DNA of 36,812 nt from Phycisphaera sp. (GTDB lineage: Bacteria > Planctomycetota > Phycisphaerae > Phycisphaerales > Zrk34), in NCBI GenBank assembly GCA_016125285.1, contig WGMA01000066.1, positions 1 to 36,812 on the forward strand, given 5' to 3'. The position numbers were made by a program, and so were the translations under genes. Numbering within the stretch: the first letter of the stretch is position 1; every line of letters starts with the position of its first letter. Of this stretch, positions 116-19,180 are shown in pieces. The notes beneath the pieces were generated by a model. It made no database searches, was not told where the DNA came from, and saw only the letters and a list, made by a program, of their open reading frames with translations.

Positions 116-529
116 TTGCAGTTGACGACCCGGCTCATAGAGGAGCGTCGCGAGGAGTTCACGCCGGGCACGAACTTCGACGCGTGGGCGTTCACGATCG
201 CGCGGTTCCAGGCGATGGCGTACCGCAAGAACACGACGCGGCAGCGGGCCAGGCGGGTCCTTTCCGACGACGCGCTCGACCGCGTCGAGGCGAAGTTCAC
301 GGAGATGTCCGACCGGGCGACCGACATGCGTGACGCGCTGCGGACGTGCCTGCAGAAGCTGTCGCCCGAGCAGCGGCACATCCTCGACGCCCGCTACGCG
401 CACGACGACACGGTGAAGGTCGCCGCCGAGCAGCTCAACCGCCCGGTCAAGTCGATGTACAAGGCGCTGTACCGCATCCGCAAGATGCTGATGGACTGCG
501 TGCGGCAGCAGGAGGCGGTGCAGGCGTGA
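116..529 (+). CDS. ECF-type sigma-70 family RNA polymerase sigma factor, N-terminally short
   Basis: Predicted to direct RNA polymerase to a small regulon, probably controlled by the membrane protein encoded next to it. Residues 14-40 carry the end of sigma region 2 (EFTPGTNFDAWAFTIARF, as in planctomycete ECF factors). Residues 70-130 form region 4 with a helix-turn-helix (KLSPEQRHILDARY, then KSMYKALYRIRKML). The product is 137 residues, while relatives are about 170-190. The roughly 45 residues of regions 2.1-2.2 that should precede LIEERREEF are missing. An in-frame TAA at 101-103 blocks any upstream extension, and no other frame upstream encodes them. The TTG start at 116 is only the first possible one. 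The stop overlaps the next start (GTGA, 526-529), so the pair is translationally coupled. It may be a decayed or frameshifted gene; family call sure, functionality uncertain. Confidence 0.75.
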   Translation: MQLTTRLIEERREEFTPGTNFDAWAFTIARFQAMAYRKNTTRQRARRVLSDDALDRVEAKFTEMSDRATDMRDALRTCLQKLSPEQRHILDARYAHDDTVKVAAEQLNRPVKSMYKALYRIRKMLMDCVRQQEAVQA

Positions 530-2948: not shown

Positions 2949-2981
2949 TTCACACGATCACGATTGCAAGGAACCCCGAGC

Positions 2982-3746
2982 ATGACACGCTATCGGTACG
3001 CCCACGGATTCACACTCGTCGAACTGCTTGTGGTGGTTTCGATCATCCTGCTGATGGTCGCGATCATCCTGCCGAGCGTCGACCGCGCGCAGAAGACGGC
3101 GTGGGAGACGCGCAGCCAGATCAACCTGCGGCAGGTCGACATCGGGTTCCTCACGCTCGCGACGGATCACCGCGGCTACCTGCCCGCCGCGTTCGCCGCG
3201 CCGTTCACCGGTCCCGAGGACTGGCAGAAGTCGTGGCTCGGCAGCGAGGTCGGCTGGACCAGCAACGAGGGGGCGCTCGTGCCGTACATCGGCGGCGTGA
3301 AGAAGGCGCAGGAGATCTACCGCGACCCGGTCATCCCGCCGTCGCCGCTGAACTCCGGCAAGGGCTCCAACGGCATGTTCGACTACTCGGCGCTGACCGC
3401 GTTCGCCGGGGCGCGCGTGTCGGCGATGCCGAACATGGTCGAGCACCTGAACCCCGACACCGGCGAGTACGAGAAGTCCAACACGCCGCTGATCGTCGCG
3501 GAGGACCCCGCGGGCTACATCAACAACCACCACGTCGAGCCGAGCCACTCGGGCCTCGACCGGCTGTCCAACTGGTACCTCGACGGCGGCGCGTACTACG
3601 CGTCGGTGGACGGGTCGGTCACGCGGCTTCAGTTCCAGACGCGCGGTCCGACCAGCCTCGAGTGGATCGCCCAGACGCCCAGCGGCGCGACCGTCAACCT
3701 CGACTGGTACCTGCCCGGCGGCTGGGGCGGCTGGAACCACCGCTGA
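2982..3746 (+). CDS. Prepilin-type N-terminal cleavage/methylation domain protein 2
   Basis: 254 residues. The ATG at 2982 is preferred over an in-frame TTG at 2964, because AAGGAA at 2969-2974 lies at a proper distance and the leader is then short. Type IV pilin-like N-terminus: YAHGFTLVELLVVVSII, cleavage after the Gly, Glu at +5, then a hydrophobic helix ending ILPSVDRAQ. The globular part ends with a DGGAYYASVDGSV segment, a diverged version of the H-X9-DG tail seen in the preceding protein. It lies 33 bp downstream of that gene on the same strand, so it is probably in the same transcript. Role inferred to be a minor pilin or pseudopilin. Confidence 0.8.
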   Translation: MTRYRYAHGFTLVELLVVVSIILLMVAIILPSVDRAQKTAWETRSQINLRQVDIGFLTLATDHRGYLPAAFAAPFTGPEDWQKSWLGSEVGWTSNEGALVPYIGGVKKAQEIYRDPVIPPSPLNSGKGSNGMFDYSALTAFAGARVSAMPNMVEHLNPDTGEYEKSNTPLIVAEDPAGYINNHHVEPSHSGLDRLSNWYLDGGAYYASVDGSVTRLQFQTRGPTSLEWIAQTPSGATVNLDWYLPGGWGGWNHR

Positions 3747-3784
3747 TCCCGTTCAACTCGAACGACTCGCAAGGAACGTCACCC

Positions 3785-4561
3785 ATGCAACGCGCCCGCG
3801 GATTCACCATCGTCGAACTGCTCGTCGTGATCTCCATCATCCTGCTGCTGGTGGCGATCCTGCTGCCGTCGATCGAGCGCAGCCAGTATCAGGCGAACCT
3901 CACGAAGTGCGCCGCGAACCTGCGTCAGCTCGGCGTGGGCGTGATGGGCTACGCGTCGGACAACCTGACGTTCTATCCGGCGCGGCCGAGCCTCAACAAG
4001 CCCACGAGCCTCAAGAACGGCGGCAACGACTACCGCCCAGCGCTGCGGGACTACGTGCCCTTCAACGCGCTGCAGTGCCCGCTGTCGCCCGATCGTGTCG
4101 ACTTCGACAAGGCCAACGCCGTGCAGGTCGAGGCGAACTACGGGCTGTGGTGGAGCTGGCGTTACAACGACGGCGGCGGGTTCGTCGAGCGCGGCATGTA
4201 CAAGCTCAACGACGTGTTCACGTTCCGCGGCGAGAAGTTCGACGTGCTGGCCGGGGACTGGGACGCGATGCAGCTGACGTACGGGCACTCCGAGACGTCG
4301 CACATCGCCTGCGGCGGCGACACGACGCATCAGGCCTGGACGTGGGTGAACTACGCGTGGGGCGGCACGACGTACACGTTCTCGCGGTGGAACAACTGGG
4401 CGGGAACGAAGCGTAAGCCGATCGACGAGAACTTCCTGTTCAACGACGGCGGCGTGCGGATGTACGGCCACGTGTCGTGGGATCACGCCGAGGTTCCGGA
4501 GATGAAGAACACGCCGGTGTTCCGCGACGTGACGGTGTGGTCGACGTGGCTGCCGCAGTGA
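3785..4561 (+). CDS. Prepilin-type N-terminal cleavage/methylation domain protein 3
   Basis: 258 residues, starting at the ATG at 3785 after a CAAGGAACG stretch that serves as ribosome binding site. The N-terminus RARGFTIVELLVVISII is a canonical prepilin cleavage site with Glu at +5, followed by LLLVAILLPSIERSQ. The conserved Cys pair region after the helix (KCAANLRQLGVGVMGYASDN) is typical of planctomycete and lentisphaeral DUF1559-like pilins. The C-terminal FNDGGVRMYGHVSWD resembles the diverged tail of the second pilin. It is the third tandem paralogue in the cassette and the last gene before a convergent neighbour. Probably co-transcribed with the two upstream pilins. Confidence 0.8.
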   Translation: MQRARGFTIVELLVVISIILLLVAILLPSIERSQYQANLTKCAANLRQLGVGVMGYASDNLTFYPARPSLNKPTSLKNGGNDYRPALRDYVPFNALQCPLSPDRVDFDKANAVQVEANYGLWWSWRYNDGGGFVERGMYKLNDVFTFRGEKFDVLAGDWDAMQLTYGHSETSHIACGGDTTHQAWTWVNYAWGGTTYTFSRWNNWAGTKRKPIDENFLFNDGGVRMYGHVSWDHAEVPEMKNTPVFRDVTVWSTWLPQ

Positions 4562-4915: not shown

Positions 4916-4943
4916 GGTTGCCCCTTTCCTGAATAACCAACGC

Positions 4944-4972
4944 AGTATGGGGCGTATATGCTGATGAGTAAA
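4944..4972 (-). promoter_or_regulatory. Candidate sigma-70-type promoter for the dehydratase
   Basis: On the minus strand TTTACT (4967-4972) and CATACT (4944-4949) are separated by exactly 17 bp, each matching 4 of 6 consensus positions. The likely start lies about 25-30 nt ahead of the ATG at 4915. Sequence match only. Confidence 0.35.
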
Positions 4973-5056
4973 GATGCTGGATGCTGGAGGGGTCCAGCGT
5001 ATACCGGCGACGATCCGGCATCGCGAGCGCCAGCGAGCCATCCGGCATCCCGCATC
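4973..5056. repeat. Imperfect inverted repeat with word-iterated arms
   Basis: GATGCTGGATGCTGGA (4973-4988) pairs with TCCGGCATCCCGCATC (5041-5056), 14 of 16 positions. Each arm is a tandem of a GATGCTGG-like word. ATCCGGCATC also occurs as a direct repeat inside the element and in the right arm. It lies between the divergent dehydratase and DUF58 genes. Confidence 0.5.
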
Positions 5057-5107
5057 GGCGAGCGCCGCGAGCCCCGACAGCCGCGTGCCTTGAGCAGTGG
5101 GGGCGAC

Positions 5108-5120
5108 TACACTGAACGGC
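5108..5120 (+). promoter_or_regulatory. Candidate -10 element giving a leaderless DUF58 mRNA
   Basis: TACACT at 5108-5113 lies exactly 7 nt before the ATG at 5121, so transcription would start at or next to the start codon. No ribosome binding site precedes this ATG. The same TACACT-N7-ATG layout occurs before the hydrolase gene at 17298. No convincing -35 is seen. Confidence 0.35.
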
Positions 5121-6062
5121 ATGAGTGAAGCTGAGCAACACCATCACGCGACGGACTATCTCCGGCCCGAAACGCTGGTGCAGTTGCACGGCACGGAGCT
5201 GCGGGCCCGGCACATCATCGAAGGCCTGATGACCGGCATGCACCGCTCGCCGTTCTTCGGTTATTCGGTCGAGTTCGCCCAGCACCGCCAGTACGCCACG
5301 GGCGACGACCTGCGGCACCTGGACTGGAAGGTGTTCGCCCGCACGGACAAGCTCTACATCAAGCAGTACCAGCAGGAAACGAACCTCGACCTGATGCTGC
5401 TGGTCGACGCGTCGGGGTCGATGAGCTACGGCTCGAAGATCGGCGGGTCGAGGGGCAAGACGTGGCGGAAGTTCGACCTGGCGACGTCGCTGGCGGCGGC
5501 GATGAGCTACATCGCGCTGCAGCAGCAGGACCGCGCCGGGCTGATCGTCTTCGCCGACAAGCTGCTGGACGTGGTGAACCCCTCGAGCCAGCGCGGGCAA
5601 TGGCGTTCGATCGTCAAGGCGTTGCAGACCAAGCCGGTGGACGCCCAGACGAACATGGGCCGGGTATTCGACGAGGTGCTGGCGAAGCTGCATCAGCGGA
5701 CGCTGGTGGTGGTGCTCAGCGACATGTTCGACGACACGTCGAGCCTGGGCGCGGGCCTGGCGCGGCTGCACCACCGCCGCCACGACGTGATGCTGCTGCA
5801 GACGCTCGACCACGAGGAGCTGACGTTCTCGTTCAGCCGACCGTCGCGTCTGCTCGGGCTGGAGAACGAAGGCAAGCTCGACCTCGACCCGCGGTCGCTG
5901 CGCGAGGCGTACCTGCAGGAGATGTCGAACCACATCGAATCGATCCGCCAGCAGGCGCGTCGGTTCCGCTACGACCACGAACTGATCGACACCTCCCGCG
6001 AGGTGGGCCCGCCGCTGAGCCACTTCCTGGCCAAGCGCGCGGCGAAACTGAAACGTGCTTGA
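5121..6062 (+). CDS. DUF58 domain protein with von Willebrand A fold
   Basis: 313 residues. DUF58 proteins normally work with a MoxR AAA+ ATPase in chaperone-like assembly or maturation; no MoxR is in this window. No membrane helix is seen, so it is cytosolic. The DUF58 core is [21 protein letters not shown] at about 60-82. The VWA metal site (MIDAS) is intact: DASGSMS at about 96-102, a Thr in TNMGRVFDE, and Asp in LSDMFDD near 200. The start is set at the ATG at 5121; an in-frame GTG at 5097 would add 8 residues within non-coding sequence. It is the first gene of a six-gene plus-strand run. Function of the whole run is not established. Confidence 0.88.
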
Positions 6063-6065
6063 GGA

Positions 6066-6145
6066 GATTTTTGAATTTGGATTTTGGATTCTTGATCGTC
6101 CCTCGCTCACGTGCGGGACCGGTCGAAAATCAAAATTCAAAAATC
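6066..6145. repeat. AT-rich inverted repeat between DUF58 and BatA genes
   Basis: A 23-nt arm at 6066-6088 starting GATTTTTGAATTT pairs with 6123-6145 (mirror starting TCGAAAATC and ending AAAAATC), with 2 mismatches. Both arms iterate a (G)GATTTT word. The loop contains an inner inverted GTCCC/GGGAC. It is strikingly A+T-rich against the surroundings. It might attenuate or stabilise the operon mRNA between its first two genes. Confidence 0.65.
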
Positions 6146-6158
6146 AAAATTGAAGTTG

Positions 6159-8384
6159 ATGCTGACACTCGCCGCATTCCCCGGATTCCTCGTCCCCGGC
6201 CTCGCCGTCGCGGGGGCGTTGGCGGTGTCGATCCCGATCATCATCCACATCCTGTCGCGTCGGCCGCGCAAGCCCGAGCCGTGGGCGGCGATGCGGTTCC
6301 TGCTCGCGGCGTACAAGAAGCACCGCGTGCGCACGCAGCTGGAGCAGTGGCTGCTGCTGGCGTCGCGCTGCCTGCTGATGCTGGTGATCGGCATGGCGCT
6401 GGCGGGGCTGATCTGGTCGGCGAGCGGCTCGCTGGGGCAGATCACCGATCAGGGGCGCACGGTGTACGTCGTGCTCGACAACTCGATCACGGCGACGGCG
6501 AAGGACGCGTCGGGCCAGCAGCGGTGGGTGCGTCTGACGAAGGCGGCGAACACGCTGCTCGACACGCTGGGCGCGAAGGACCGCGTGGCCTTGATCACGG
6601 CGTCGCGTCCGGTGCAGACGGCGGTCTGGCCGCCGAGCGCCGACCCGATGGCGGTGCGACGCCAGATCGAGCAGATGCGCCCCACCGCCGCGGAGGCCGA
6701 CCTGCCGGAGGCGTTGCGTCAGACGCTGCGGTCGATCGAGCAGGACGACAAGGACACGCGGCCGGTGTACGTGGTGATGCTCAGCGACCTGTCGGCGGGC
6801 GCGGCGCCGGTCGGCGAGCCGATGCCCGCGGAGCTCAAGCGGCTGGGCGAGAAGGCGACGCTGATGGCGTTGGAGCCGGCGACGTCGTCGAACAACGTGC
6901 AGATCACGAAGCTGGAGCCGGACCGGCGGATCGTCGTGCCGGAGATCGCGGGCGCGACGCCGACGGTGACGTGGACGGTGGGCGTGCGTCGTCTGACGGA
7001 CAACGCGGCGGGGGCGACGCTGTCGACGGTGCGTCTGCAGTCGCCGGACCGCGCGCCGATCGTTCGGGCGGTGCAGTGGGAGCCGGGTCAGACCGAGACG
7101 CAGGTGCGCATCACCACGCCGCTGGACAAGCCGGGCCTGCAGACGGTCAGCGCGACGCTGGACCCCGAGGGCGAGGCGACGGACTCGGTGGGCGCGGACA
7201 ACACGCGGCAGTCGGTGGTGCGGGTGTACGAGAAGCTGGTGGTGCTGGTGCTGGATCGCAAGGGCGCCGAGACGCAGGCCGCCGACGGGTTCACGCCGCG
7301 GAAGTGGCTGACGACGGTGCTGGCGCCGGCGGCGGACCGGCTGAACTGGCCGATCGAAGTGCGCGAGCAGGACGCGGGCACGGTGAGCGACGAGACGCTG
7401 ACCGAGGCGAGCGTGGCGTTCGTGCTGCGGCCGGACCTGCTGAGCGACACGGCGTGGGCGTCGATGAAGCAGTGGTGCGAGGCGGGCGGACTGGTGTGGT
7501 TTGTCGCGCCGGCCACGCCGCAGCCGGGCCTCTGGCCGCAGACGCTGACCGACACGTTCGGGCTGAGCTGGTCGATCGCGCTGGAGCCGACGACGCACGA
7601 CCCGCCGCTGAAGCTCGAAGCGACCGAAACCCCCGCGCCGGAACTGGCGCGGCTGCGTCCGGACCTGGCGGACCTGCTGCGACCCGTCACCGTGTCGCGC
7701 CGGCTGCCGATCGACGCCGCGTCGCTGGGCGCGGCGACGGACGTGATGCTCAGCGCGAACGGCTCGCCGCTGCTGATCGCGACCACCGCCCCGCCGCACG
7801 GACGTGTGATGCTGCTGGCGACCGCGCTCGATTCGGAGTGGACGAACCTGCCGACCAAGCCGCTGTTCGTGCCGCTGGTGCACGAGTCGCTGCGTGCGGC
7901 GATCGATCGCCTGCTGCCGGGCAACGAGTTCGAGCCGGGCGATCAGCCGCAGCTCGCGGCGAGCTGGTCGGGCACGACACGCCTCGACGGCCCCGAGGGC
8001 GCGGACATGATGCTCGCGCCCGTGGACAGCGCCGACCCGCAGCGCGGCGTCCAACCCATCCGCCCGTTCGCCGAGCCCGGCCTGTACCGCAGCGAGACCG
8101 ACGCGCTGGTCGTCAACGTCGACCCCAACGCCGCCAACACGCTCGCCGTCGACCGCAACGTGCTGACCGCCTGGCTCGACGGGGCCGGGACATGGAAGAA
8201 CATCAACGCCGACGACCCGACCGCGCCGATGCGCGCCGAGTCGGCCCGTACCGACTGGACCACGACGCTGCTGTGGATGGCGATCGTGCTGGCGCTGATC
8301 GAGATGTTCCTCGCGCGCCACGTGTCGCACGCCACGGCGCACAAGAGCCGCGCCTCGGCGCTGACGATCCAGCCGACCAACTAA
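6159..8384 (+). CDS. BatA-domain / VWA-like membrane protein
   Basis: 741 residues from the ATG at 6159; an earlier in-frame start would read through the inverted repeat. The BatA N-terminal membrane domain is clear: FPGFLVPGLAVAGALAVSIP, IIIHILSRRPRK, then a second helix LLASRCLLMLVIGMALAGLIW. A VWA-like domain follows with YVVLDNSITAT at about 101-111. Its metal-site motif is D-N-S-I-T instead of D-x-S-x-S, so the MIDAS may be altered. The middle is beta-rich with Ig-like stretches, followed by a class I amidotransferase-like region. A C-terminal helix LLWMAIVLALIEMFLA re-anchors it. Most of the chain is therefore extracytoplasmic. The next gene starts 9 nt downstream, indicating a shared mRNA. 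Likely partner of the DUF58 and second VWA protein; exact role unknown. Confidence 0.82.
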   Translation: MLTLAAFPGFLVPGLAVAGALAVSIPIIIHILSRRPRKPEPWAAMRFLLAAYKKHRVRTQLEQWLLLASRCLLMLVIGMALAGLIWSASGSLGQITDQGRTVYVVLDNSITATAKDASGQQRWVRLTKAANTLLDTLGAKDRVALITASRPVQTAVWPPSADPMAVRRQIEQMRPTAAEADLPEALRQTLRSIEQDDKDTRPVYVVMLSDLSAGAAPVGEPMPAELKRLGEKATLMALEPATSSNNVQITKLEPDRRIVVPEIAGATPTVTWTVGVRRLTDNAAGATLSTVRLQSPDRAPIVRAVQWEPGQTETQVRITTPLDKPGLQTVSATLDPEGEATDSVGADNTRQSVVRVYEKLVVLVLDRKGAETQAADGFTPRKWLTTVLAPAADRLNWPIEVREQDAGTVSDETLTEASVAFVLRPDLLSDTAWASMKQWCEAGGLVWFVAPATPQPGLWPQTLTDTFGLSWSIALEPTTHDPPLKLEATETPAPELARLRPDLADLLRPVTVSRRLPIDAASLGAATDVMLSANGSPLLIATTAPPHGRVMLLATALDSEWTNLPTKPLFVPLVHESLRAAIDRLLPGNEFEPGDQPQLAASWSGTTRLDGPEGADMMLAPVDSADPQRGVQPIRPFAEPGLYRSETDALVVNVDPNAANTLAVDRNVLTAWLDGAGTWKNINADDPTAPMRAESARTDWTTTLLWMAIVLALIEMFLARHVSHATAHKSRASALTIQPTN

Positions 8385-8393
8385 CGAGACCGA

Positions 8394-10811
8394 ATGAACT
8401 GCATCGCTCACATCACGACGCTGCTCGCCCAGGCACAGGCCGACGAAGGCGGCGGTCTGCTGCGCTGGCTGCTCGGCGTCGATCGCATCGATCCGACGAG
8501 CCCGGACGTCGTGCTCGACTGGCAGCACCGCGTGCCGCTGTGGGCGTGGGCGCTGATCGTGATCGCGGCGGTGGTGCTCGCGGCGTTGAGCTACCGGCAG
8601 ATGACCGGCAACCGCAGCGGGCGGATCGTGCTCGCGGCGGTGCGCACGGGGCTGCTGATCCTCATCGTCGCGCTGCTCGCCGGGCCGATGCTCGTGCTGC
8701 CCAACGAGATCGTCGAGGAGGACCACGTCGTGATGCTCGTCGACCGGTCGAAGTCGATCGGCGTGGCGGACGTGCCGGACCCGTCGTCGCCCGACCCGCT
8801 GGCTCGCATCAGCCGCGACAAGCAGCTGCGCGACCTGCTCGACGAGCACGCCGACGTGTGGAAGCGCCTCGGCGAGGGGCACAACGTCGCGTGGCTCGGG
8901 TTCGCCGACCGCGGGCCGACGCCGATGGGCGACCCGAGGAAGCTCACCGACGCCAACGGCGAGGCGACGGCGTTGCGCAGCGCGATCGACGAGTCGCTGC
9001 GACGCACGGCCGGCAAGCCGGTCAGCGCGGTGGTGGTGTGGACCGACGGTCGCAGCAGCGAGCCGATCGGCGCCGAGACGTGGCGGAAGCTGCGTCAGAT
9101 GGGCGTGCCGGTGTACGCGGTGCCGCTGGGGTCGCCGGAGCAGCCGCTCGACCTGGCGATCCAGCGCATCGACGCGCCGAGCCGGGCGTTCATCAACGAC
9201 ACCGTGCCGGTCACCGTGACGGTGCAGCAGACGGGCGTCGAAGGCCCCGACGCGGCGCTGCCGCCGAACACGGTGCTCAAGCTGATCGACACGACCACGC
9301 AGCAGGTGCTCGACGAGCAGCCGGTGTCGAAGCTGGGCGAGCCGGTGCGCCTGCTGACGATCCCCAAGGCCGCGGGCCAGGCGACGTGGCGCGTGCAGCT
9401 CAGCACGCCGCAGCCCGAGCTGATCACGGAGAACAACGCCGAGACGCTGGAGGTCTCGCTGATCGACCGCGCGATCCGGCTGCTGTACGTCGAGGGCTAC
9501 CCGCGGTGGGAGTACCGCTACCTCAAGAACCTGCTGATCAACGAGGGCCTGCGCACGGAGAAGACGATCGACTCGTCGATCATGCTGATCAGCGCCGACC
9601 GCACGTTCGCGCAGGAGGGCACGATCCCGCTGCGTCGTCTGCCGCGCACCGAAGAGGAGATGCAGCCGTACGACGTGATCGTCATCGGCGACGTCCCGGC
9701 GAACTTCTTCAGCGCCGATCAGCAGCGTCTGATCCACCGTCAGGTGTCGGTGCACGGTGCGGGCCTGCTGTGGATCGGCGGGCAGAAGTGGACGCCGACG
9801 ACCTACGCCGCGGGCCCGCTGTCGCCGCTGCTGCCGATGCAGGGCCCGGCGAGCACCGCGACGCTGTCGCCGCCGATCGCGATGCAGCCGACGCCGGCCG
9901 CCGAGGCGCTGGGCGTGATGCGGCTGCTGCCCAACGAGCCGCAGCCGACCGCGGCGGGTGAACCGCTGGTGACCTGGCCGACGAACCTGCCGCCGCTGAT
10001 GTGGGCGCAGTCGATCGAATCGATCAAGCCGGCCGCCGAGCCGCTGGCGATCGACGCGTCGTCGGGCCAGCCGCTGATCGTGCGGATGCGCGACGGCGCC
10101 GGTCAGTCGCTGTACATCGCGACCGACGAGGTGTGGCGCTGGCGTTACGGGCGCGGCGACCTGTGGGGCCAGCAGTACTGGATGCAGCTGATCCGGCTGC
10201 TGTCGCGCGGGCGGCTCGACACCGGCGGCGCCGACTCGCGTGCGTCGCTCGTCGTCTCGCACCGCCGCGCCGCCGTGGGCGACACGCTCGTGGTCGAGGT
10301 CGTGCTGCGTGACCAGGCGCTGCTCGAGCAGAACCGCCCCGCCGTCGAGGTCGCCGTCAACGAACTGCGAGAAAGCGACGCGACCGCGCCGACGCCGTCG
10401 GGCCTGCGCACGCAGACGTCGCAGCTGCTGACGCTGACCGCGACCGACAAGCCGGGCCACTACCGCGGCGTGTGGACCCCCGCCGCGCCGGGCCGCATGG
10501 CGCTGACCGTCTCGACCGCGGACCTGGCCGACCTGGGCCTCCGCCGCGTCGTGCAGGTCGACCGCCTCGAAGACGAGATGCGTTACCCCGCAACGGACCA
10601 CGACGCGCTGGCCGAACTGGCGAGCCGCACCGGCGGGCAGGTGCTCACGCCGACGCAGCTGACGTCGCTGGACAAGATCCTGCCCAACCGCGCCCGCCAC
10701 ACCCCCGCCGACATCCGCGAGCCGCTGACGCACAGCCGCCTGGCCTTCTTCGTGCTGATCCTGCTGCTGACCGGCGAGTGGGTGGGACGACGGCTGCTGG
10801 GGCTGGCGTAA
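8394..10811 (+). CDS. Membrane VWA / glutamine-amidotransferase-like protein
   Basis: 805 residues. Two N-terminal membrane helices (about 48-65 WAWALIVIAAVVLAALSY and 78-100 VRTGLLILIVALLAGPML) are followed by a VWA domain with an intact MIDAS: MLVDRSKSIG near 113-122 and VVWTDGRSS near 213-221. A beta domain leads to LYVEGYPRWEYRYL (about 365-378) and DVIVIGDVPANFFS, the amidotransferase-like fold found in this planctomycete family. No catalytic Cys-His-Glu triad is evident there, so it is probably a binding fold. A last helix FFVLILLLTGEW precedes the C-terminus. Unlike its upstream neighbour it keeps the canonical metal site, so the two may have divided labour. Start ATG at 8394, 9 nt after the previous stop. 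Confidence 0.85.
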   Translation: MNCIAHITTLLAQAQADEGGGLLRWLLGVDRIDPTSPDVVLDWQHRVPLWAWALIVIAAVVLAALSYRQMTGNRSGRIVLAAVRTGLLILIVALLAGPMLVLPNEIVEEDHVVMLVDRSKSIGVADVPDPSSPDPLARISRDKQLRDLLDEHADVWKRLGEGHNVAWLGFADRGPTPMGDPRKLTDANGEATALRSAIDESLRRTAGKPVSAVVVWTDGRSSEPIGAETWRKLRQMGVPVYAVPLGSPEQPLDLAIQRIDAPSRAFINDTVPVTVTVQQTGVEGPDAALPPNTVLKLIDTTTQQVLDEQPVSKLGEPVRLLTIPKAAGQATWRVQLSTPQPELITENNAETLEVSLIDRAIRLLYVEGYPRWEYRYLKNLLINEGLRTEKTIDSSIMLISADRTFAQEGTIPLRRLPRTEEEMQPYDVIVIGDVPANFFSADQQRLIHRQVSVHGAGLLWIGGQKWTPTTYAAGPLSPLLPMQGPASTATLSPPIAMQPTPAAEALGVMRLLPNEPQPTAAGEPLVTWPTNLPPLMWAQSIESIKPAAEPLAIDASSGQPLIVRMRDGAGQSLYIATDEVWRWRYGRGDLWGQQYWMQLIRLLSRGRLDTGGADSRASLVVSHRRAAVGDTLVVEVVLRDQALLEQNRPAVEVAVNELRESDATAPTPSGLRTQTSQLLTLTATDKPGHYRGVWTPAAPGRMALTVSTADLADLGLRRVVQVDRLEDEMRYPATDHDALAELASRTGGQVLTPTQLTSLDKILPNRARHTPADIREPLTHSRLAFFVLILLLTGEWVGRRLLGLA

Positions 10812-10821
10812 TCGCCTTCGC

Positions 10822-10898
10822 GTAGGGTCCGCTAGTGCGGACCGGTCGGGCGCATCGCACGTACGCACAGGGATCCGGCCCGCAATGGCGGACCCTAC
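10822..10898. repeat. Long inverted repeat after the second VWA gene
   Basis: GTAGGGTCCGC (10822-10832) pairs perfectly with GCGGACCCTAC (10888-10898). The pairing extends inward to about 24 nt per arm with 3 mismatches, and each arm is itself partly self-complementary. It occupies the only large gap within the operon besides the element at 6066. Confidence 0.65.
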
Positions 10899-10995
10899 TT
10901 GCTCCCGACTATCGGAAACCGGCGTGTAACAACCGTCATATAGATGCGGCAATCCACCGGTGAGCCGCTAAAATGGATGGGAACGGAGACAGGCC

Positions 10996-13900
10996 TTGTC
11001 ACCATTGGTTAAACAGCTCGAGCTGGTCCGTCGCAGGGCGCGCACGATGCTGGTCGTGATGCGGCTGGCGGCGTGGCTGGCGACGGTGATCGGCGTGGCC
11101 ATCGCCGCGGGGCTCGTCGACTACACGCTGCGGCTGCCGGGGTGGCTGCGGCTCGTGCTCGTATCGCTCGGTCTCGCCTGGGCGCTGTGGCACGTGCTGG
11201 TCCACATCGGGCGCAGCGTCCGCGTCACGCCCGCGCTGACGACGCTCGCGCTGCGGCTCGAACGCATCTACCCCGAGGCCGCGGGACGCCTCGCCTCCGG
11301 CGTCGCCTTCGCCACCGGCTCCTCCGACCCCAACCCGTCACCCATCACGCGTCACCTCGCGCAGCGCACCGCCGGCGAGGTCGACGACGTGCTCCAGCCG
11401 CAGCAGGTCGAACGCCTGCTCGACGCCACGCGCATGTGGCGCTGCGTGACCGTGCTCGCGATCTCCGTCGCCGCGATGACCGCCGTCGCCGTCGCCGCGC
11501 CGCAGCAGACCATGACCGCGTTCAACCGCTGGGCCAGGCCGCTCGGCGACACGCGCTGGCCGAACCGCTACGCGGTCGAGTCGATGACGTACGACGAGGT
11601 TGCGCCGAACAACGCGCCGCTGTCCGTCGCGGCGCAGGTCACCAAGGGCGACGACGACACGCTCCGCACGTGGGTCGTCTACCGCTTTGACACGCCGAGC
11701 GGCATGACCGACTGGCAGCGCACGCTGATGACGCGTCAGAGCGACGGCCGCCTCGCCGGTCGCTACCAGCGCCTCATCGAGCCGCAGTCCAACGCCGAGC
11801 GCATCGAGCTGTACTTCGAGGCCGGCGACGATCACACGACGACGCAGACGATCCGGCTGATCGAGCCGCCGACGCTGCGGCAGGTCGTCGCGGAGATCAC
11901 GCCACCCGACTACGCCAAGGCGTTCCGCGTGCACGAGCCGCACTACCTGCTCACGCCGCCCCGCCCCGCCGTGCTGATCGACGACGCGTTGCGCGGCTCG
12001 CGGGTGACCCTCCGTGTGCACATCGACGGCTCGCTGACGAAGCTCGACAAGTCGCCGAGCAACGAGCAGATCGCCGAGTGGATCCGCTCGAACATGCCTG
12101 GCCTGATGCCGGCGAACACGGCCGTGGCCGCGAGCCTGATGAACGTGAAATACGAGATCGAGCCCGAGACGACGGCCGCGTTCGCGTTCCGCCTGAGCTG
12201 GACGCTGACCGAGCCGGCGCAGTTCAGCTTCAACCCGCACGACGCGTACGGCAAGGCGTACCCCGACCAGCGTGTGTTCCGCTTCGAGCCGCGCGACGAC
12301 CGCGCCCCGCGCGTCACGATCCTCGACCCCGCGGGCGACGAGTCGGTGCTGCCCACGGCCAAGGTCGATCTCGCCGCCGAGGCGCAGGACGACGTGGCGG
12401 TCAGCAATCTCGAGCTCACCGCCGAGTGGGCCAAGGCCCAGCCGCTCGTGCTCGCCCACCAGCCCGACGTCAACCAGCCGCGCACGACCCTCAACGGCGG
12501 CATCGATCTGACGCCGCTGAAGCTGCTGCCGGGCGACACGGTGGCGATCATCGCGGTCGTGCGTGACAACTACCTGCTCGACGGCAAGTCGCACGACGCG
12601 GTGCGCTCGACGCCGCGCAACCTCACGATCATCAGCCCCGACGAGCTCGTGCGTCAGGTGCGCACCGACCTCGCGGAGCTGCGTCAGCGTGCGATCCGCG
12701 CCGCGTCGACGCAGCAGCGCCTCATCGAATCGCCCGCCGACGCGTCGACCGCGCAGCAGCAGGACGAGCTCGTCGAGCGCCTCGACACGATGAGCCGCAC
12801 CGTCGACACGCTGCGTCAGCGCATCGACCGCAATCAGCTCAAGGACGAAGACCTCGGCCAGACGCTCGACGAGGCCGGGCGACTCGTCGACCAGGCGCAG
12901 CGCGAGGCGCAGCAGGCGTCGGACAAGCTCAAGCGTGTCGCGCGTGACCCGACCGCGAAGGACCCGCAGACGCAGCAGGAGCTGCAGCAGTCGCGCGAGC
13001 AGCAGAAGTCGGTCAAGGACGAGCTCGACAAGCTCGTGCAGCTGCTCGACCAGGGCCGCGACGCGTACGAACTGAAGCAGAAGCTCACGAAGCTGGCGAA
13101 CGATCAGCAGCAGTTGTCCGACAAGGTCCGCCAGCTGCTGCCCAAGACGCTCGGCCGCAGCGCCGACCAGCTGCCCGACGAGGACCGCAAGGCGCTGGAG
13201 CAGGCGGCGCGCGAGCAGCAGCAGCTGTCCGACCAGGCCCAGCAGCTGACCGACCGCATGCGGCAGACGTCGTCGGTGATCAGCCGGCAGTCGCAGAAGC
13301 CCGACGACCAGGCGACGGCCGAGGCGTTGCGACAGGCGGCGGACACCGCGACGAAGGAATCGCTCGACAAGAAGATGGAGCAGGCGTCGCAGCAGGTGCA
13401 GCAGAACCGCCTCGCCCAGGCGCAGCGCCAGCAGCAGGACGCGTCGGAGGTGATCCGGCAGATGCTCGACCAGCTCGGCAACACCGACAAGCTGCGGCAG
13501 GAGATGCTCAGCCGCAAGCTGTTCGAGCTCGCCGACGAGATCAAGCGCCTGCGTGACGCGCAGCAGGCGCAGCTCGACCGCCTCGTGGCCGCGGCGAAGT
13601 TCGACAGCCTCGACGCGCCGATGATGACGCTGCGGACGAACACGATGGCCGTCGCCGAGGACGCCCGCAACACCGACCGCAAGACGATCCCCGTCGCCGA
13701 GGCGCTGGACAAGGCCGTGCCGTACCAGGCCACCGCCGTGCAGGAGCTGCGTGCAACGCCCGTGGCCAAGCCCGCGGCGATCGACGCCGAGACGCAGTCG
13801 CTTGCCAGGCTCAACGAGGCGCTCGACCTCGCCCAGAAGCTCGCCCGCGAGGCGGCGCAGGAGATGTCGAACAAGCAGCGCAAGGAACTCGTCGAGGAGT

Positions 13901-14595
13901 ACGGCAAGGTGCTGGCGCAGCAGGTCGAGGTGCTCAAGCAGACCGAAGAGCTGGCCGGGACCGCCGCGCCGCAGCGCGACCGCCGGTGGCGCAGCTCGTC
14001 GCTGTCGACCGGCAACACGCAGGCCGACATCCGCGTTGAGCTGACGAAGATCGGCGAGAAGGTCAAGGAGACGATCGTGTACCAGTCGGTGCACCAGCAG
14101 ATGGACACGTGGGCGGGCGACGCGTCGGCGTCGCTGCGTCAGGCCAAGCCCGACGCGGTCAGCGTGTTCGATCAGAAGATGATCGTCCGCAGCGTCGAGG
14201 CGCTGATCGACGCGCTCAAGCAGGACCCCAGCGAAGACGAGTTCGCCGAGGCCAACTCCGGCAACGGCGGGCAGAGCGGCGGGCAGGGCAACCAGCCGCA
14301 GCAGCAGCCGCTCGTGCCGCCGCTCGCCGAGCTGAAGCTGCTGCGGACGAAGCAGCAGATGCTGCTCGACATGACCAAGACCTACAACGAGCAGCCGGCC
14401 GACGCCGACCCGCAGGGCCGCGTGCTGCGACTGCTCACCGACCAGCAGACCAACCTCGCCGACGTCGGCGACCGCCTGATCGAGTCGATGAACCAGCAGC
14501 AACAGCAGCCGCCTAAAATGAAGTTGCCGACGGGCGGCGACGACAAGCCGGAACCCGACGGCGGCAGCGACGGAGCGAAGGAGCCCCAGCAATGA
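10996..14595 (+). CDS. Giant membrane-anchored coiled-coil protein (DUF4175-like)
   Basis: 1199 residues. A TTG start at 10996 is used, with GGAGA seven nt upstream; a TAAAAT box at 10969-10974 could provide its own promoter. Helices at about 20-40 and 46-66 (LPGWLRLVLVSLGLAWALWHV) and another at about 148-170 anchor it. Residues 180-550 are beta-rich with Ig-like stretches (PRVTILDPAGDESVLPTAKV). Residues 550-1010 form a very long, Gln-rich coiled coil (repeated QQQLSDQAQQL-type heptads). The tail (about 1090-1199) is Gly/Gln/Pro-rich. The layout matches DUF4175-type planctomycete and bacteroidete proteins found with DUF58/VWA genes. Inference: a scaffold spanning the periplasm. Its stop overlaps the next start (ATGA at 14592). 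Confidence 0.78.
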   Translation: MSPLVKQLELVRRRARTMLVVMRLAAWLATVIGVAIAAGLVDYTLRLPGWLRLVLVSLGLAWALWHVLVHIGRSVRVTPALTTLALRLERIYPEAAGRLASGVAFATGSSDPNPSPITRHLAQRTAGEVDDVLQPQQVERLLDATRMWRCVTVLAISVAAMTAVAVAAPQQTMTAFNRWARPLGDTRWPNRYAVESMTYDEVAPNNAPLSVAAQVTKGDDDTLRTWVVYRFDTPSGMTDWQRTLMTRQSDGRLAGRYQRLIEPQSNAERIELYFEAGDDHTTTQTIRLIEPPTLRQVVAEITPPDYAKAFRVHEPHYLLTPPRPAVLIDDALRGSRVTLRVHIDGSLTKLDKSPSNEQIAEWIRSNMPGLMPANTAVAASLMNVKYEIEPETTAAFAFRLSWTLTEPAQFSFNPHDAYGKAYPDQRVFRFEPRDDRAPRVTILDPAGDESVLPTAKVDLAAEAQDDVAVSNLELTAEWAKAQPLVLAHQPDVNQPRTTLNGGIDLTPLKLLPGDTVAIIAVVRDNYLLDGKSHDAVRSTPRNLTIISPDELVRQVRTDLAELRQRAIRAASTQQRLIESPADASTAQQQDELVERLDTMSRTVDTLRQRIDRNQLKDEDLGQTLDEAGRLVDQAQREAQQASDKLKRVARDPTAKDPQTQQELQQSREQQKSVKDELDKLVQLLDQGRDAYELKQKLTKLANDQQQLSDKVRQLLPKTLGRSADQLPDEDRKALEQAAREQQQLSDQAQQLTDRMRQTSSVISRQSQKPDDQATAEALRQAADTATKESLDKKMEQASQQVQQNRLAQAQRQQQDASEVIRQMLDQLGNTDKLRQEMLSRKLFELADEIKRLRDAQQAQLDRLVAAAKFDSLDAPMMTLRTNTMAVAEDARNTDRKTIPVAEALDKAVPYQATAVQELRATPVAKPAAIDAETQSLARLNEALDLAQKLAREAAQEMSNKQRKELVEEYGKVLAQQVEVLKQTEELAGTAAPQRDRRWRSSSLSTGNTQADIRVELTKIGEKVKETIVYQSVHQQMDTWAGDASASLRQAKPDAVSVFDQKMIVRSVEALIDALKQDPSEDEFAEANSGNGGQSGGQGNQPQQQPLVPPLAELKLLRTKQQMLLDMTKTYNEQPADADPQGRVLRLLTDQQTNLADVGDRLIESMNQQQQQPPKMKLPTGGDDKPEPDGGSDGAKEPQQ

Positions 14596-15290
14596 CACGA
14601 CGTGGAAATCGCCGCATGTGGATCGCCGCGACGGTCGCCGCGTGCGCCGTCACGCTGGGCGCGTCGCCGCTGTCGCTGCACGCCAAGGACGCCGACGCGC
14701 CGCCGACGCTCGACGAGTTGCTGAACCTGCCCGAGCCGCCGAGCAAGCCGAACCGCGCGCAGCCCGGCGACAACGCCGCGCCGCGTGTGCCGCTGCCGGA
14801 GGGCGAGGAAGCCAAGGGCGGCGACGCGTTCGCTCAGGCCGTGGTCGAGATGAAGCAGGCCGCGGACCGGCTCGCCTCCGCCGGCGACACCGGCCTGCCC
14901 ACGCAGCGCATCCAGGAGCGCATCATCCGCCGACTCGACCAGCAGATCGCCGAACTCAACAAGCAGCAACAGCAGCAGAAGCAGAAACAGCAGCAGCAAC
15001 AGCAGCAGGACACCGGCGCGAAGTCGAACCAGCAGAAGCCGGGCCAGCAGAAGCAGCAGTCCGAGCGCAACAGCCAGGCGCACGAGTCGGCCGACAAGGC
15101 CGGGCAGAAGGGCGAAGTGAAGAACGGCCAGCTCGGCGACGAGCCGCTGACCGAGCGTCTGAGCGAATGGGGCAACCTCCCGCCGCGCCTGCGCAAGCAG
15201 CTGCTGCAGGGCTGGGAGGACAACTTCTCGCAGTTGTACCGCGACCTGACCGAGCGTTATTACCGGCGGCTCGCTGAGGAGGGGAGATGA
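14592..15290 (+). CDS. Secreted Gln-rich hypothetical protein
   Basis: 232 residues. A signal peptide is seen at 1-31 (MWIAATVAACAVTLGASPLSLHA, cleavage after HAKD or nearby). A proline-rich stretch follows, then a helix (VVEMKQAADRLAS), then a low-complexity poly-Gln/Lys tract at about 120-160. A conserved-looking C-terminal module contains EWGNLPPRLRKQLLQG and the end DNFSQLYRDLTERYYRRLAEE. That C-terminal module is common in proteins next to DUF4175 genes in planctomycetes, as far as I recall. It overlaps both neighbours by 4 nt, so it is made in step with the coiled-coil protein and the toroid. Function unknown; a small helical partner of the coiled-coil scaffold is a reasonable guess. 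Confidence 0.7.
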   Translation: MTRRGNRRMWIAATVAACAVTLGASPLSLHAKDADAPPTLDELLNLPEPPSKPNRAQPGDNAAPRVPLPEGEEAKGGDAFAQAVVEMKQAADRLASAGDTGLPTQRIQERIIRRLDQQIAELNKQQQQQKQKQQQQQQQDTGAKSNQQKPGQQKQQSERNSQAHESADKAGQKGEVKNGQLGDEPLTERLSEWGNLPPRLRKQLLQGWEDNFSQLYRDLTERYYRRLAEEGR

Positions 15291-16375
15291 AGTTTCGAAG
15301 TGAAGAAGTGACGGTCGCGCTCGCGGCCGTGATCGCGCTGACGCTGCTCGCGCCCGCAACGATGTGGGCCGCCGACGAACCCGACGCGCCCGCCCCGCCG
15401 GCGAACAACGTCGCGCCGCCCGGCGCGGCCAACGCCGACCCCGAGTTCACCGAGATCACGCCGAAGATGACCGAGTCCGCGCTGCAGGGCCTGGCGTTCC
15501 TCGCCACGCAGCAGCAGGAGGACGGCTCGTTCGGCGCCGAACGCTACGGCCGACACGTCGGCATCACCGCGCTGGCCGCGCTGGCGTTCATGAGTCACGG
15601 CGACCTGCCCGGTCGCGGCAACTACGGCAAGTACGTCGAGAAGGCGCTGACGTTCATCCTCGACAACGTTCAGCCCAACGGCCTGATCGCCGCGGACACG
15701 TCGCACGGCCCGATGTACGGGCACGGCTTCGCGACGCTCTTCCTCGCCGAGATCTACGGCATGACCCACGACGAGCGCACCCGCGAAGCGCTCGTCAAAG
15801 CCATCCGCCTGATCGTCCGCTCGCAGAACGACGAGGGCGGCTGGCGTTACCAGCCCGTGCCCAACGAGGCCGACCTCTCGGTGACGATCTGCCAGGTGAT
15901 GGCGCTCCGCGCCGCGCGCAACGCCGGCATCAAGGTGCCCAAGGAAGTCGTCGACAAGGCCGTCGACTACGTGCGTCGCTGCCAGAACCCCGACGGCGGG
16001 TTCCGCTACATGCTCAACAGCGGTTCGAGCGCGTTCCCGCGCAGCGCCGCGGGCGTCGCGACGCTCTACTACGCCGGCATCTACACCGACCAGGCGATCG
16101 ACCGCGGCCTGTCCTACATCATGGAGCACGTGCCCGGCTCCGGCCGCAACACGCCCCACTACTTCTACGGCCACTACTACGCGGTGCAGGCGATGTACCT
16201 CGCCGGCGGCAAGTACTGGCGCACGTGGTACCCCGCGATCCGCGACGAACTGATCAGCCGCCAGGACCCCACCGACGGCTCGTGGGACGGCCAGGCCGGC
16301 AAAACCTACGGCACCGCCATGGCGCTGATCATCATGCAGATGCCCAACCGCTACCTGCCGATCTTCCAGAAGTGA
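15287..16375 (+). CDS. Secreted prenyltransferase/squalene-oxidase-repeat (QW) toroid protein
   Basis: 362 residues. A signal peptide or anchor occupies residues 1-28 (VTVALAAVIALTLLAPATMWAA). The rest is an alpha/alpha toroid with repeated QW-type motifs: QQEDGSF near 82, QNDEGGW near 184, QNPDGGF near 234 and QDPTDGSW near 325. The catalytic DXDD of squalene-hopene cyclases is not present and the protein is about half their length, so it is unlikely to cyclise triterpenes. Known for planctomycetes: such half-length secreted toroids accompany VWA/DUF4175 genes, with no assigned activity. It may be a binding domain like the thioester domain toroid of alpha-2-macroglobulins. Start ATG overlaps the previous stop (15287-15290). 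Last gene before a strong terminator. Confidence 0.8.
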   Translation: MKFRSEEVTVALAAVIALTLLAPATMWAADEPDAPAPPANNVAPPGAANADPEFTEITPKMTESALQGLAFLATQQQEDGSFGAERYGRHVGITALAALAFMSHGDLPGRGNYGKYVEKALTFILDNVQPNGLIAADTSHGPMYGHGFATLFLAEIYGMTHDERTREALVKAIRLIVRSQNDEGGWRYQPVPNEADLSVTICQVMALRAARNAGIKVPKEVVDKAVDYVRRCQNPDGGFRYMLNSGSSAFPRSAAGVATLYYAGIYTDQAIDRGLSYIMEHVPGSGRNTPHYFYGHYYAVQAMYLAGGKYWRTWYPAIRDELISRQDPTDGSWDGQAGKTYGTAMALIIMQMPNRYLPIFQK

Positions 16376-16408: not shown

Positions 16409-16438
16409 AAAGCCCGGGGCAGGCCTGCCCCGGGCTTT
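16409..16438. terminator. Perfect 30-bp palindromic bidirectional terminator
   Basis: AAAGCCCGGGGCAGG (16409-16423) is followed directly by its exact reverse complement (16424-16438). It lies between the stop of the QW-toroid gene (plus) and the stop of the hydrolase (minus). GGGCTTT on either strand gives a short T-run for both directions. Confidence 0.85.
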
Positions 16439-16461: not shown

Positions 16462-17298
16462 TCACGGCGCCTTCGGGGTCGCGTATTTGACGATGAAGTC
16501 GATGAGGGGCTTGGGGTCGTCGAGGCCGTGCTTGTGGCCGACGCCGGGCTTGTGGATGACGGTGATCTCGCCGCCCATGTCCTTGTAGCGTTTCTCGACG
16601 AGGAGGGTGTTCTCGGCGGGCGGGACGACGTCGTCGGCGTCGCCCACGACGTGGATCAGCGGGATGCCGGCCGCGGCGAGCGGTGCGAGCGAGTCAACGG
16701 GGTTGTGCGGGTACTTCAGCGCCTCCTGCTCGTCGGCGAATCCGTAGGCGAGCAGCAGGCGTTTCCAGTCGGTCTCCGAGCCCTTGCCCTTGCCGTAGCC
16801 GCCGGGCCAGCTCTTGAAGTCGCAGACCGGGGCGTCGGCGTAGATGCACGCGACCTTGTCGAGGTTGGCGATCGCCCAGTTGAAGATGATCAGCCCGCCG
16901 CGGCTCATGCCCTCGAGCGCGGGCCGCTTCGCGAAGCCGTGGTTGTCGACGAGCTCCTCGTACATCGCGTTCCAGTGCTCGACCGCCTGCTCGCAGCCGT
17001 ACAGGTTCGCCACGTCGATGTACACCACGTGCCAGCCCTTGGCGAGCAGCGCGAGGTCGACCTCCGGGCGGTGGCCCCAGAATCGCGCCCGCCAGATCCA
17101 CGGCTTGCCCGGCGCGACCTGCTTCGGCGCGACAACGATCGCGTCGCGGTCGTCGCATTGGAACTGGTACATCGTGTACCCGTTCCAGTTCGACGTCTTG
17201 CCTTCGAACTCCGCGGGCTCGGCGGCACGCGCGGGACGCGCCGTGATGAAGGTCAGTGATAGAGCGATCAACAGGACGGTGATGAGTGTGTTACGCAT
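16462..17298 (-). CDS. Secreted alpha/beta hydrolase (serine esterase/peptidase-like)
   Basis: 278 residues with a signal peptide (ITVLLIALSLTFITARPARA, 5-24). The catalytic triad of an alpha/beta hydrolase is visible: nucleophile Ser in LEGMSRGGLI near 147, acid in VVGDADDVVPP near 224, and His in KPGVGHKHGL near 255. The WKRLLLAYGF insertion is typical of prolyl oligopeptidase-like carbohydrate esterases in planctomycetes. Substrate is unknown; with the sialate esterase-like neighbour on the same strand 92 bp upstream, deacylation of polysaccharides is plausible. Start ATG at 17298, preceded by TACACT at 17306-17311 and no ribosome binding site, suggesting leaderless initiation. Confidence 0.8.
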   Translation of the reverse strand: MRNTLITVLLIALSLTFITARPARAAEPAEFEGKTSNWNGYTMYQFQCDDRDAIVVAPKQVAPGKPWIWRARFWGHRPEVDLALLAKGWHVVYIDVANLYGCEQAVEHWNAMYEELVDNHGFAKRPALEGMSRGGLIIFNWAIANLDKVACIYADAPVCDFKSWPGGYGKGKGSETDWKRLLLAYGFADEQEALKYPHNPVDSLAPLAAAGIPLIHVVGDADDVVPPAENTLLVEKRYKDMGGEITVIHKPGVGHKHGLDDPKPLIDFIVKYATPKAP

Positions 17299-17311
17299 AG
17301 GTGATAGTGTA
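17299..17311 (-). promoter_or_regulatory. Candidate -10 element giving a leaderless hydrolase mRNA
   Basis: On the minus strand TACACT (17306-17311) stands 7 nt before the ATG at 17298, exactly as before the DUF58 gene. No Shine-Dalgarno sequence lies in between. No recognisable -35 hexamer at the right distance. Confidence 0.35.
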
Positions 17312-17390
17312 TGCCGCGCGCGCGAAAGAAAATACACCCGAGACGGCGCGGCGTCCCGGCTTTGCAAACCGCTGGTCCCTGGCTGCGGGT

Positions 17391-18974
17391 TCAGTTGGCG
17401 TCGACGGTCACGCCCGGCCAGTCGTCGGTGCGGAACGGCGACATCGGCAGGCTCACCGAGTTGTACACGTTGACCACCGGGTTGTTCGCCCAGCCGTAAC
17501 GCACCGCCACGGGCTCCTTCACGTCGTCGCTCCATACCGTCACGGCGTCCTTGCCGGCGATCTTCGCCTCGGCCCACTTCCACTGCTTGTCGGCGCCGGC
17601 GATCTGGAAGCCCTTGACCGGCTCGTTGTCGAACGACTGCAGGCCCGTGCCGACGCTGCTGAACGTGAGCACGGCCTTGTCGCCCTTGATCTGCATCTCC
17701 TTGAAGTGCGGGCTGCGGGCGACGATGTCGATGCCGTAGTCGTTGGCCAGCGCCAGGCGTGCGAGCCGCTTGCCGACGTACTGCTTGTTGGTCGGGTGGA
17801 TGTTGTTGGCCAGGCCGATGTCGATGATCACGGCCTCGCCGGTGTTCGGCAGCTTCAGCGTCATGGACTGCGCTTCGCGGAGCTCGGCCCAGTCGCTCTC
17901 GGCCGGCTCCTCCACGACGGGCTTGAAGTTCGCGAGCTGCACCCAGTAGAACGGGAAGTCGCCCTGATGCCAGTCCTCTCGCCAGTTGTTGATCATGGTC
18001 GGAAAGACGGTGCGGTACTGGAAGGCGCGCGACGCGTTGGACTCGCCCTGGTACCAGATCGCGCCGCGGATCGCGAAGGGGATGATCGGCGCGATCTTGC
18101 CGTTGTAGAGCGACGCCGGTCGGTGCGGGTCGAGGCGCGGGTCGACAAACTGCGGACGGCGCGGCGGACGCCCGCCGGTCTTCTTCGCCTCCGCGGCCTT
18201 CGTCTTCCACTCCTCGAGATTCTTTTCGTAATCCGCCTTGGCCTTGTCCGGATCGAAATCGGCGACCTGCTTGTCCCACCGGTCGAGCAGCGGCTTGAGA
18301 TTCGCCTGCGCCTCCATCGCTTCGCGACGCGTCCAGGCCTCGGACGGCGTGCCGCCCCACGACGTGTTGATCAGGCCGATCGGCACGCCGAGCGTTTCGT
18401 ACAGCTGGCGACCAAAGTAGTAGCCGACGGCGGTGAAGCCCGGCAGCGTCTCGGGGGCGCACACCTGCCAGTCCGCCTGCGTGTCGTCGAGCGGCTGCTC
18501 GGCGGTGACGCGCGCGGTGGTGAAGAAGCGGATGCCCGCGTGATCGCGGGCGGCGAGCGCCTCGAGGTCGGCGTCGTTGCCGCGCGACACGCTGAACGCC
18601 ATGTTCGATTGACCGCTGCACACCCACACCTCGCCGACCAGCACGTCGGCGAGCGTCAGCGTGTTCTTGCCCTTGATCGTCATCTCGCGCGGCTCGGCGG
18701 ACGCCTTCAGCGGGTCAAGCCGCACCGCCCAGCGTCCCTCGGCGTTGGCCTTGGCGACCTTGTTCTGCCCGGCGAACGACACGGTGACCTTCTCGTCGGC
18801 GTCGGCCCAGCCCCATATGTCCGCGGGCTTGTCGCGTTGGATGACCATGTGGGCGCCGATCACGGCAGGCACCTTCACGTCGGCGTACGCAACGTGTTGA
18901 ACGCCGCTCACGACACCGGTCAGGACGAGAACAGCGCTCACCGCGACACGGGAGAAAAAGACATTACCGGACAT
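17391..18974 (-). CDS. Sialate O-acetylesterase-like SGNH hydrolase
   Basis: 527 residues, secreted by a signal peptide (VAVSAVLVLTGVVSGVQHVAYA). It is predicted to remove O-acetyl groups from sugars, as 9-O-acetylesterases of sialic acid and similar deacetylases of plant or algal polysaccharide do. Family blocks are intact: CSGQSNMAFSV near 103 with the nucleophile Ser, INTSWGGTPSEAW near 206, IWYQGESNASRAF near 305, and the His in NNIHPTNKQYVG near 390. An N-terminal beta domain and a C-terminal Ig-like domain flank the SGNH core, as in longer family members. The ATG at 18974 follows GGAGG with 5-nt spacing; the earlier TTG-like reading lacks a site. Possibly co-transcribed with the hydrolase downstream. 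Confidence 0.88.
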   Translation of the reverse strand: MSGNVFFSRVAVSAVLVLTGVVSGVQHVAYADVKVPAVIGAHMVIQRDKPADIWGWADADEKVTVSFAGQNKVAKANAEGRWAVRLDPLKASAEPREMTIKGKNTLTLADVLVGEVWVCSGQSNMAFSVSRGNDADLEALAARDHAGIRFFTTARVTAEQPLDDTQADWQVCAPETLPGFTAVGYYFGRQLYETLGVPIGLINTSWGGTPSEAWTRREAMEAQANLKPLLDRWDKQVADFDPDKAKADYEKNLEEWKTKAAEAKKTGGRPPRRPQFVDPRLDPHRPASLYNGKIAPIIPFAIRGAIWYQGESNASRAFQYRTVFPTMINNWREDWHQGDFPFYWVQLANFKPVVEEPAESDWAELREAQSMTLKLPNTGEAVIIDIGLANNIHPTNKQYVGKRLARLALANDYGIDIVARSPHFKEMQIKGDKAVLTFSSVGTGLQSFDNEPVKGFQIAGADKQWKWAEAKIAGKDAVTVWSDDVKEPVAVRYGWANNPVVNVYNSVSLPMSPFRTDDWPGVTVDAN

Positions 18975-19180
18975 CAAAACCTCCGAACCGGTGCAATGGG
19001 TTGTCAGGACAGGTGGATACGTGACCAACGCCGACAGCTTAGACCCCATCGTTTTGTCGGGCAACTGCATTATCGCGGCACGCGGTGAAAAGGGTTCACG
19101 GGATTGCTAAATCTTGGCCAATGCCTTGGAAACGCGTGTTCAGCATCTCGGTATGCCCGCCGACCGGCGTACGCCCCACA

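Follow-up and report, generated by a model that had tools for sequence, protein, structure and literature searches.

A six-gene DUF58–VWA operon of Phycisphaera sp. as part of a conserved planctomycete gene module, with its likely moxR elsewhere in the genome

Judging from gene content and order in relatives, six genes on a 36,812-nucleotide stretch of Phycisphaera sp. DNA (contig WGMA01000066.1, hereafter the window) belong to a conserved planctomycete gene module that is kept in Phycisphaerales and extends beyond that order. The same comparisons, read with a MoxR phylogeny, indicate that moxR usually heads the operon and that in the window's family it has been moved, not lost. We put the probability at roughly one half that the six genes encode six parts of a seven-part MoxR–DUF58–VWA module of the inner membrane and periplasm, with moxR acting in trans from the dnaA region and the whole building or maintaining an envelope scaffold. 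At the sequence level, this reading draws on the conserved composition and order of the genes, their co-inheritance with one MoxR clade, the fusion of two of the proteins in some relatives, and the predicted topology. Planctomycetota envelopes are poorly understood, and the operon offers a candidate envelope machine that is retained throughout Phycisphaerales and also occurs elsewhere in the phylum. The seven-gene set defined here includes a motor gene that is missed if only neighbours are inspected, and with such a set, knockout tests become concrete.

Layout of the six genes and their products

All six reading frames are open and lie on the + strand, running head to tail as originally described: DUF58 (5121-6062; 313 aa, with its ATG at 5121), BatA/VWA (6111-8384), GATvwa, which encodes a TM-VWA-amidotransferase-like protein (8394-10811), CC (10996-14595; 1199 aa), Qrich, encoding a Gln-rich protein (14592-15290), and QW (15287-16375). 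From DUF58 to QW, the junction spacings are 48, 9, 184, -4, and -4 nt; the tight 9-nt or 4-nt geometry that had been claimed for most junctions is found at three of the five, with wider gaps at DUF58–BatA and GATvwa–CC. The leader between DUF58 and a divergent pterin-4a-carbinolamine dehydratase gene (4916-5120, +) is likely the promoter region of the operon, and a search of this leader for a sigma-70 consensus found none. It also lacks moxR, which occupies that position in relatives. Downstream, between convergent genes, the perfect palindromic terminator of the original prediction was recovered as a 30-nt perfect palindrome (16409-16438) by sequence, RNA fold (-30.8 kcal/mol, z -4.8), and terminator scan; it is probably a terminator that serves both convergent genes. 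Convergent to the operon are genes for a sialic-acid-type acetylesterase (SASA) and an S9-type hydrolase (16462-19070, -), which may share its palindromic terminator. Other genes in the window include those for a FecR/LamG protein followed by two proteins with prepilin-type N-methyl leaders (346-4561) and, downstream of the operon, an ammonium transporter (19457-21112, +) and an HSP70 of the DnaK type (32476-34407, -).

Pfam searches bore out the earlier calls of DUF58, BatA/VWA_2, and a squalene-cyclase toroid, and the second VWA protein was recognised through its 26 orthologues. The DUF58 protein (PF01882, E 1e-43, 149 bits vs. a cut-off of 23.4) is a soluble protein with a single VWA fold and no predicted TM segment. 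Its MIDAS is intact, and in the alignment, the DxSxS motif and the late Asp are retained among orthologues and the Thr mostly retained. The BatA-like protein matches PF07584 (E 1.7e-12, 48 bits vs. 25.9), TIGR02226 (E 5.8e-19, 68.2 bits vs. 23.05), and VWA_2 (E 2.8e-10), with BatA and VWA_2 matched by 22/22 of its orthologues. It is predicted to comprise two N-terminal TM helices, a cytoplasmic loop, a VWA domain, and a C-terminal TM helix. The positive cytoplasmic loop between the N-terminal helices has a conservation of 0.71, against 0.46 for the whole protein, and the two helices are likewise conserved above the whole-protein level; the MIDAS of the VWA domain is degenerate.

The VWA match of GATvwa is weak for the single protein (E 0.0019) and clear over the 26 orthologues; GATase1_like is matched by these as well (best E 3e-4), as are solved VWA and GATase1-like chains. 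Two N-terminal TM helices are followed by a VWA domain whose MIDAS is intact in nearly every orthologue, an Ig/CARDB domain, an amidotransferase-like domain, a second Ig domain, and a C-terminal TM helix. The AlphaFold2 model (pLDDT 87) gave local Foldseek matches to BatB 3ibs, 4jdu, CARDB 3idu, and OST48. The nucleophile elbow would be expected in segment 425-470, which lacks a cysteine in all 26 orthologues; with the catalytic Cys missing, a catalytic class I glutamine amidotransferase was ruled out. A tblastn search of plasmids with GATvwa (P0003) returned three matches, all weak.

CC has three N-terminal TM helices, an Ig-like region (about residues 190-545), and approximately 600 residues of helical bundles; its AlphaFold2 model has a pLDDT of 85, and its Foldseek matches, Ig and vinculin-like, are weak. 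An assignment of CC to DUF4175/TIGR02302 was not supported, as the curated cut-off was missed: one of 22 orthologues gave a match (E 0.0018), and the genome held none over the cut-off, in a search whose control was also weak. By hydropathy, both Qrich and QW begin with a signal-peptide-like N-terminus. Qrich ends in a conserved C-terminal motif, EWGNLPPRLRxxLLQG...YYRRLAEE. The CC and Qrich genes share an ATGA overlap in most relatives, and of 87 long CC frames, 14, spread over several lineages, encode the two proteins as a fusion; these 14 include at least one pair, L060 and L114, that appears identical in sequence. The fusions carry a linker in place of the Qrich signal peptide, which fits a periplasmic C-terminus for CC. 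QW, the best conserved of the six (54-74% identity to 18 orthologues), is an alpha/alpha-toroid (PF13243, E 2.4e-10, 40.4 bits vs. a cut-off of 26.1) that matches the squalene-hopene cyclase 3sqc in the PDB (E 4e-11). Against the squalene-hopene cyclase equivalog TIGR01507, it scored 24.5 bits where 431 are needed, and the DxDD motif is absent from its sequence (P0006). With no catalytic residues and the equivalog score not reached, a terpene cyclase enzyme was ruled out.

The positive-inside rule predicts that the VWA domains of the BatA-like protein and GATvwa lie in the periplasm, together with the Ig, helical, Qrich, and QW parts, and that DUF58 and MoxR are cytoplasmic. Of the shared envelope assembly first proposed, two elements stand, namely the conservation of the genes as a single unit and a predicted topology indicative of the envelope, but its working free of MoxR does not.

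Gene order in relatives

A search with GATvwa (P0003) of 41 genomes, namely the window's own and 40 relatives of its order, gave matches in all 41 and orthologue-level matches in 35. In 34 fetched neighbourhoods, the usual order was MoxR-DUF58-BatA-GATvwa-CC-Qrich-QW. Among 80 named genome loci, mostly from Phycisphaerae MAGs, this full order was present in 27, and moxR stood upstream of DUF58 in 43; the remainder began at DUF58 or were cut by contig ends. Outside the order, the seven-gene arrangement recurs at two loci (L223 and L224), and three others (L230, L231, and L233) have a variant with QW before CC. Synteny is conserved in the order and beyond it rather than simply scattered. Three other families of the class (f7-f9), sampled by nine genomes, yielded no QW orthologue at E 1e-100, and GATvwa was also missing in two of these genomes.

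In an alternative reading, CC, Qrich, and QW would be a second membrane/secreted set, functionally separate from a standard MoxR-DUF58-BatA-VWA chaperone set upstream and only co-transcribed with it. We judge this unlikely, though it deserves some weight. In genus g9, the system is split among three locations (moxR; DUF58-BatA-GATvwa; CC::Qrich-QW), which sets the two halves apart, and QW is found away from the operon in some other Planctomycetota, standing in several other genomes with no operon neighbours. However, the g9 genomes retain both halves despite their separation, an arrangement that suggests three modules, all retained. In most named loci, GATvwa is followed by CC in the same order, and both halves are jointly absent from the operon-negative genomes tested. 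An ordinary MoxR-DUF58-VWA set with unrelated genes downstream had been named as the case that would undo the original prediction; the MoxR set is indeed ordinary, but the downstream genes, on the evidence of their conserved order, belong with it.

Several individual loci depart from the usual layout. In G035, assembled as one contig, at least three separate sites hold pieces of the operon (GATvwa at 1301051, moxR at 1405118, and CC at 1030637), with the tested parts kept. Within the window's family, approximately 7 kb of other DNA separates GATvwa from CC at one locus (L051; G002, contig C62). Two contigs titled Cyanobacteria and Verrucomicrobia (L180, RHKP01000011.1, and L158, CAIOKD010000140.1, respectively) carry the planctomycete operon and are probably misbinned; the CC of the former is very close to that of the window.

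Location and inheritance of moxR

The window contains no MoxR gene, in keeping with the observation that none is nearby, and the eight strong MoxR genes of its genome are all on other contigs. The window begins at base 1 of its contig (C57), and the region farther upstream is visible only in relatives. The description of the operon as lacking MoxR did not hold, since one of the eight, on contig C50, nests inside the operon-MoxR clade in three trees (support 97/93, 100, and 99), a placement that rules out true loss. Displaced MoxRs from four other members of the window's family (G002, G003, G004, and G006) also fall in this clade, as do those of six genomes of family f2 and of G035 and G036. 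Distances can be considerable. In the single contig of G006, about 0.97 Mb separates moxR (2.44 Mb) from the operon (3.42 Mb), and on one contig each, the two are separated by ~600 kb in G014, ~285 kb in G040, and ~104 kb in G035.

The flanking genes of moxR in the window's family are dnaA and nuoH (NADHdh), with G003 seen on the dnaA side only. In the window's own genome, this place is L104:2021-6835 on C50, and four to five genera of the family keep the dnaA-moxR-nuoH arrangement. The two intergenic gaps around the C50 moxR hold four exact DnaA boxes (TTWTCCACA) vs. 0.04 expected, and the moxR loci of G004 and G006 hold two each; given these boxes, the locus is probably the replication origin region. 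Displaced moxR genes of other families are not adjacent to dnaA or nuoH, which argues that displacement probably occurred more than once. MoxR partners should accordingly be assigned by phylogeny and not by adjacency alone.

The operon and this MoxR clade were inherited together. Both are present in 33 of the 39 testable genomes of the order, and neither is present in the other six (G001, G005, G007, G008, G013, and G023); two of the 41 genomes (G032 and G034) were left out of this count owing to contig ends. The six operon-negative genomes are not independent events, as four belong to the window's family. In five of them (all except G023), CC searches found no orthologue and only paralogue-level matches, and the QW search among operon-negative genomes covered the four members of the window's family. 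This pattern of co-occurrence supports a functional link between the operon and the MoxR clade.

Another MoxR could serve the operon, given four further related MoxR systems in the genome. These paralogous MoxR-DUF58-BatA-GATvwa sets (on C44, C80, C35, and C5) have the same core parts as the window's operon and a MoxR nearby, and two have a QW gene; their GATvwa proteins are 23-28% identical to that of the window, and their MoxRs fall in separate clades. GATvwa relatives number four to seven per genome in most other Planctomycetota examined. The operon might also use no MoxR, with the dnaA-linked orthologue serving some other process, such as one involving nuoH (complex I). The displaced moxR adjoins nuoH in an arrangement kept in four family members, and one study reports that RavA-ViaA interacts with E. 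coli complex I (PMC3893208). Use of a different MoxR or none nevertheless seems improbable to us, because the clade MoxR was found in 33/33 operon-bearing genomes tested and was absent from 6/6 without the operon, and because the displaced copies of other families are not near dnaA or nuoH.

A putative envelope machine and known systems

The putative seven-part machine most likely helps to build or maintain the cell envelope. In the mechanism that we infer for it, including the BatA docking step and the MIDAS ligand, MoxR, as a hexamer, and DUF58, as its VWA adaptor, would be active on the cytoplasmic side and bind the BatA-like protein at its conserved cytoplasmic loop. The ATP-driven remodelling would be relayed via BatA and GATvwa into the periplasm, where the intact MIDAS of GATvwa may grip an acidic ligand presented by the CC/Qrich/QW assembly. 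This assembly would form a long Ig-plus-helical-bundle scaffold, the building or upkeep of which would support envelope integrity. A more ambitious version, which we consider quite unlikely, is a trans-envelope machine whose cytoplasmic MoxR motor mechanically builds or loads a periplasmic Ig/helical-bundle scaffold bearing a non-catalytic terpene-cyclase-fold protein and so helps shape the unusual planctomycete envelope, and in one family, the motor gene would sit at the replication origin with its dose following replication.

We found no literature specific to this operon in Planctomycetes, and the main text of a Planctopirus essential-gene paper leaves its families unmentioned. The binding targets of CenR, an envelope regulator of Rhodobacter, include a MoxR gene and a TIGR02302 gene (PMC9275681), but since CC failed the DUF4175 test, that listing serves as background only. 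One likeness is to NorQ/NorD and RavA/ViaA, in which a MoxR ring and a VWA adaptor act at a membrane-associated client (PMC9976466, PMC13036017, PMC9489729). In NorQ-NorD, the MoxR ring turns a VWA "finger" and the membrane client is remodelled, the client needing the MIDAS (PMC9976466, PMC13036017), and the site of RavA-ViaA action is the inner membrane (PMC9489729). If the module operates in like manner, the membrane-anchored VWA proteins would be driven by MoxR and DUF58 and would in turn build or maintain the CC/Qrich/QW scaffold. Those systems have one VWA partner, whereas here there are the DUF58 VWA and two membrane-anchored VWA proteins whose VWA domains are predicted to be periplasmic.

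The features of a Bat-type MoxR-DUF58-VWA set are present: a clade MoxR (C50, non-adjacent), DUF58 with VWA and MIDAS, and BatA with its double TM and VWA. With the Bat operon of Bacteroides, Leptospira, and Borrelia, the module shares MoxR, DUF58, a BatA-type double-TM VWA protein, and a second VWA protein, the GATvwa fold matching BatB. GATvwa differs from that operon's second VWA protein in its extra Ig and amidotransferase-like domains, and the operon as a whole differs in the addition of CC, Qrich, and QW and in that Pfam and NCBIfam scans of the six proteins and orthologue sets found no BatD or TPR (BatC/E) match. The BatA domain, TIGR02226, and the structural match to BatB would suit a Bat-type oxidative-stress (aerotolerance) system instead of an envelope assembly machine. 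Such a role is doubtful at best, as neither BatD nor a TPR component was found in the six proteins, and according to a Leptospira study, no specific function of the Bat proteins had been shown by experiment (PMC3557215).

Rhizobium leguminosarum RL3499-RL3502 (cmdA-D) is among the closest known systems to the window's operon. It contains a DUF4159 domain, and we know of no CC, Qrich, or QW in it. The window's operon differs in being without DUF4159, which was rejected as a component; PF13709 occurs at 11 places in the genome, none on the window's contig. With CC below the DUF4175 cut-off and BatA without DUF4159, the link to Rhizobium draws on MoxR, DUF58, and architecture and falls short of full homology. 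The original prediction held that no member has an assigned job, and this is true of these six proteins, but the related MoxR/DUF58/Bat operon does have mutant phenotypes: according to two papers citing Vanderlinde 2011 (PMC5700661, PMC5118466), RL3499-RL3502 is a conserved Bat/VWA/MoxR-type operon whose mutants have envelope and cell-morphology defects.
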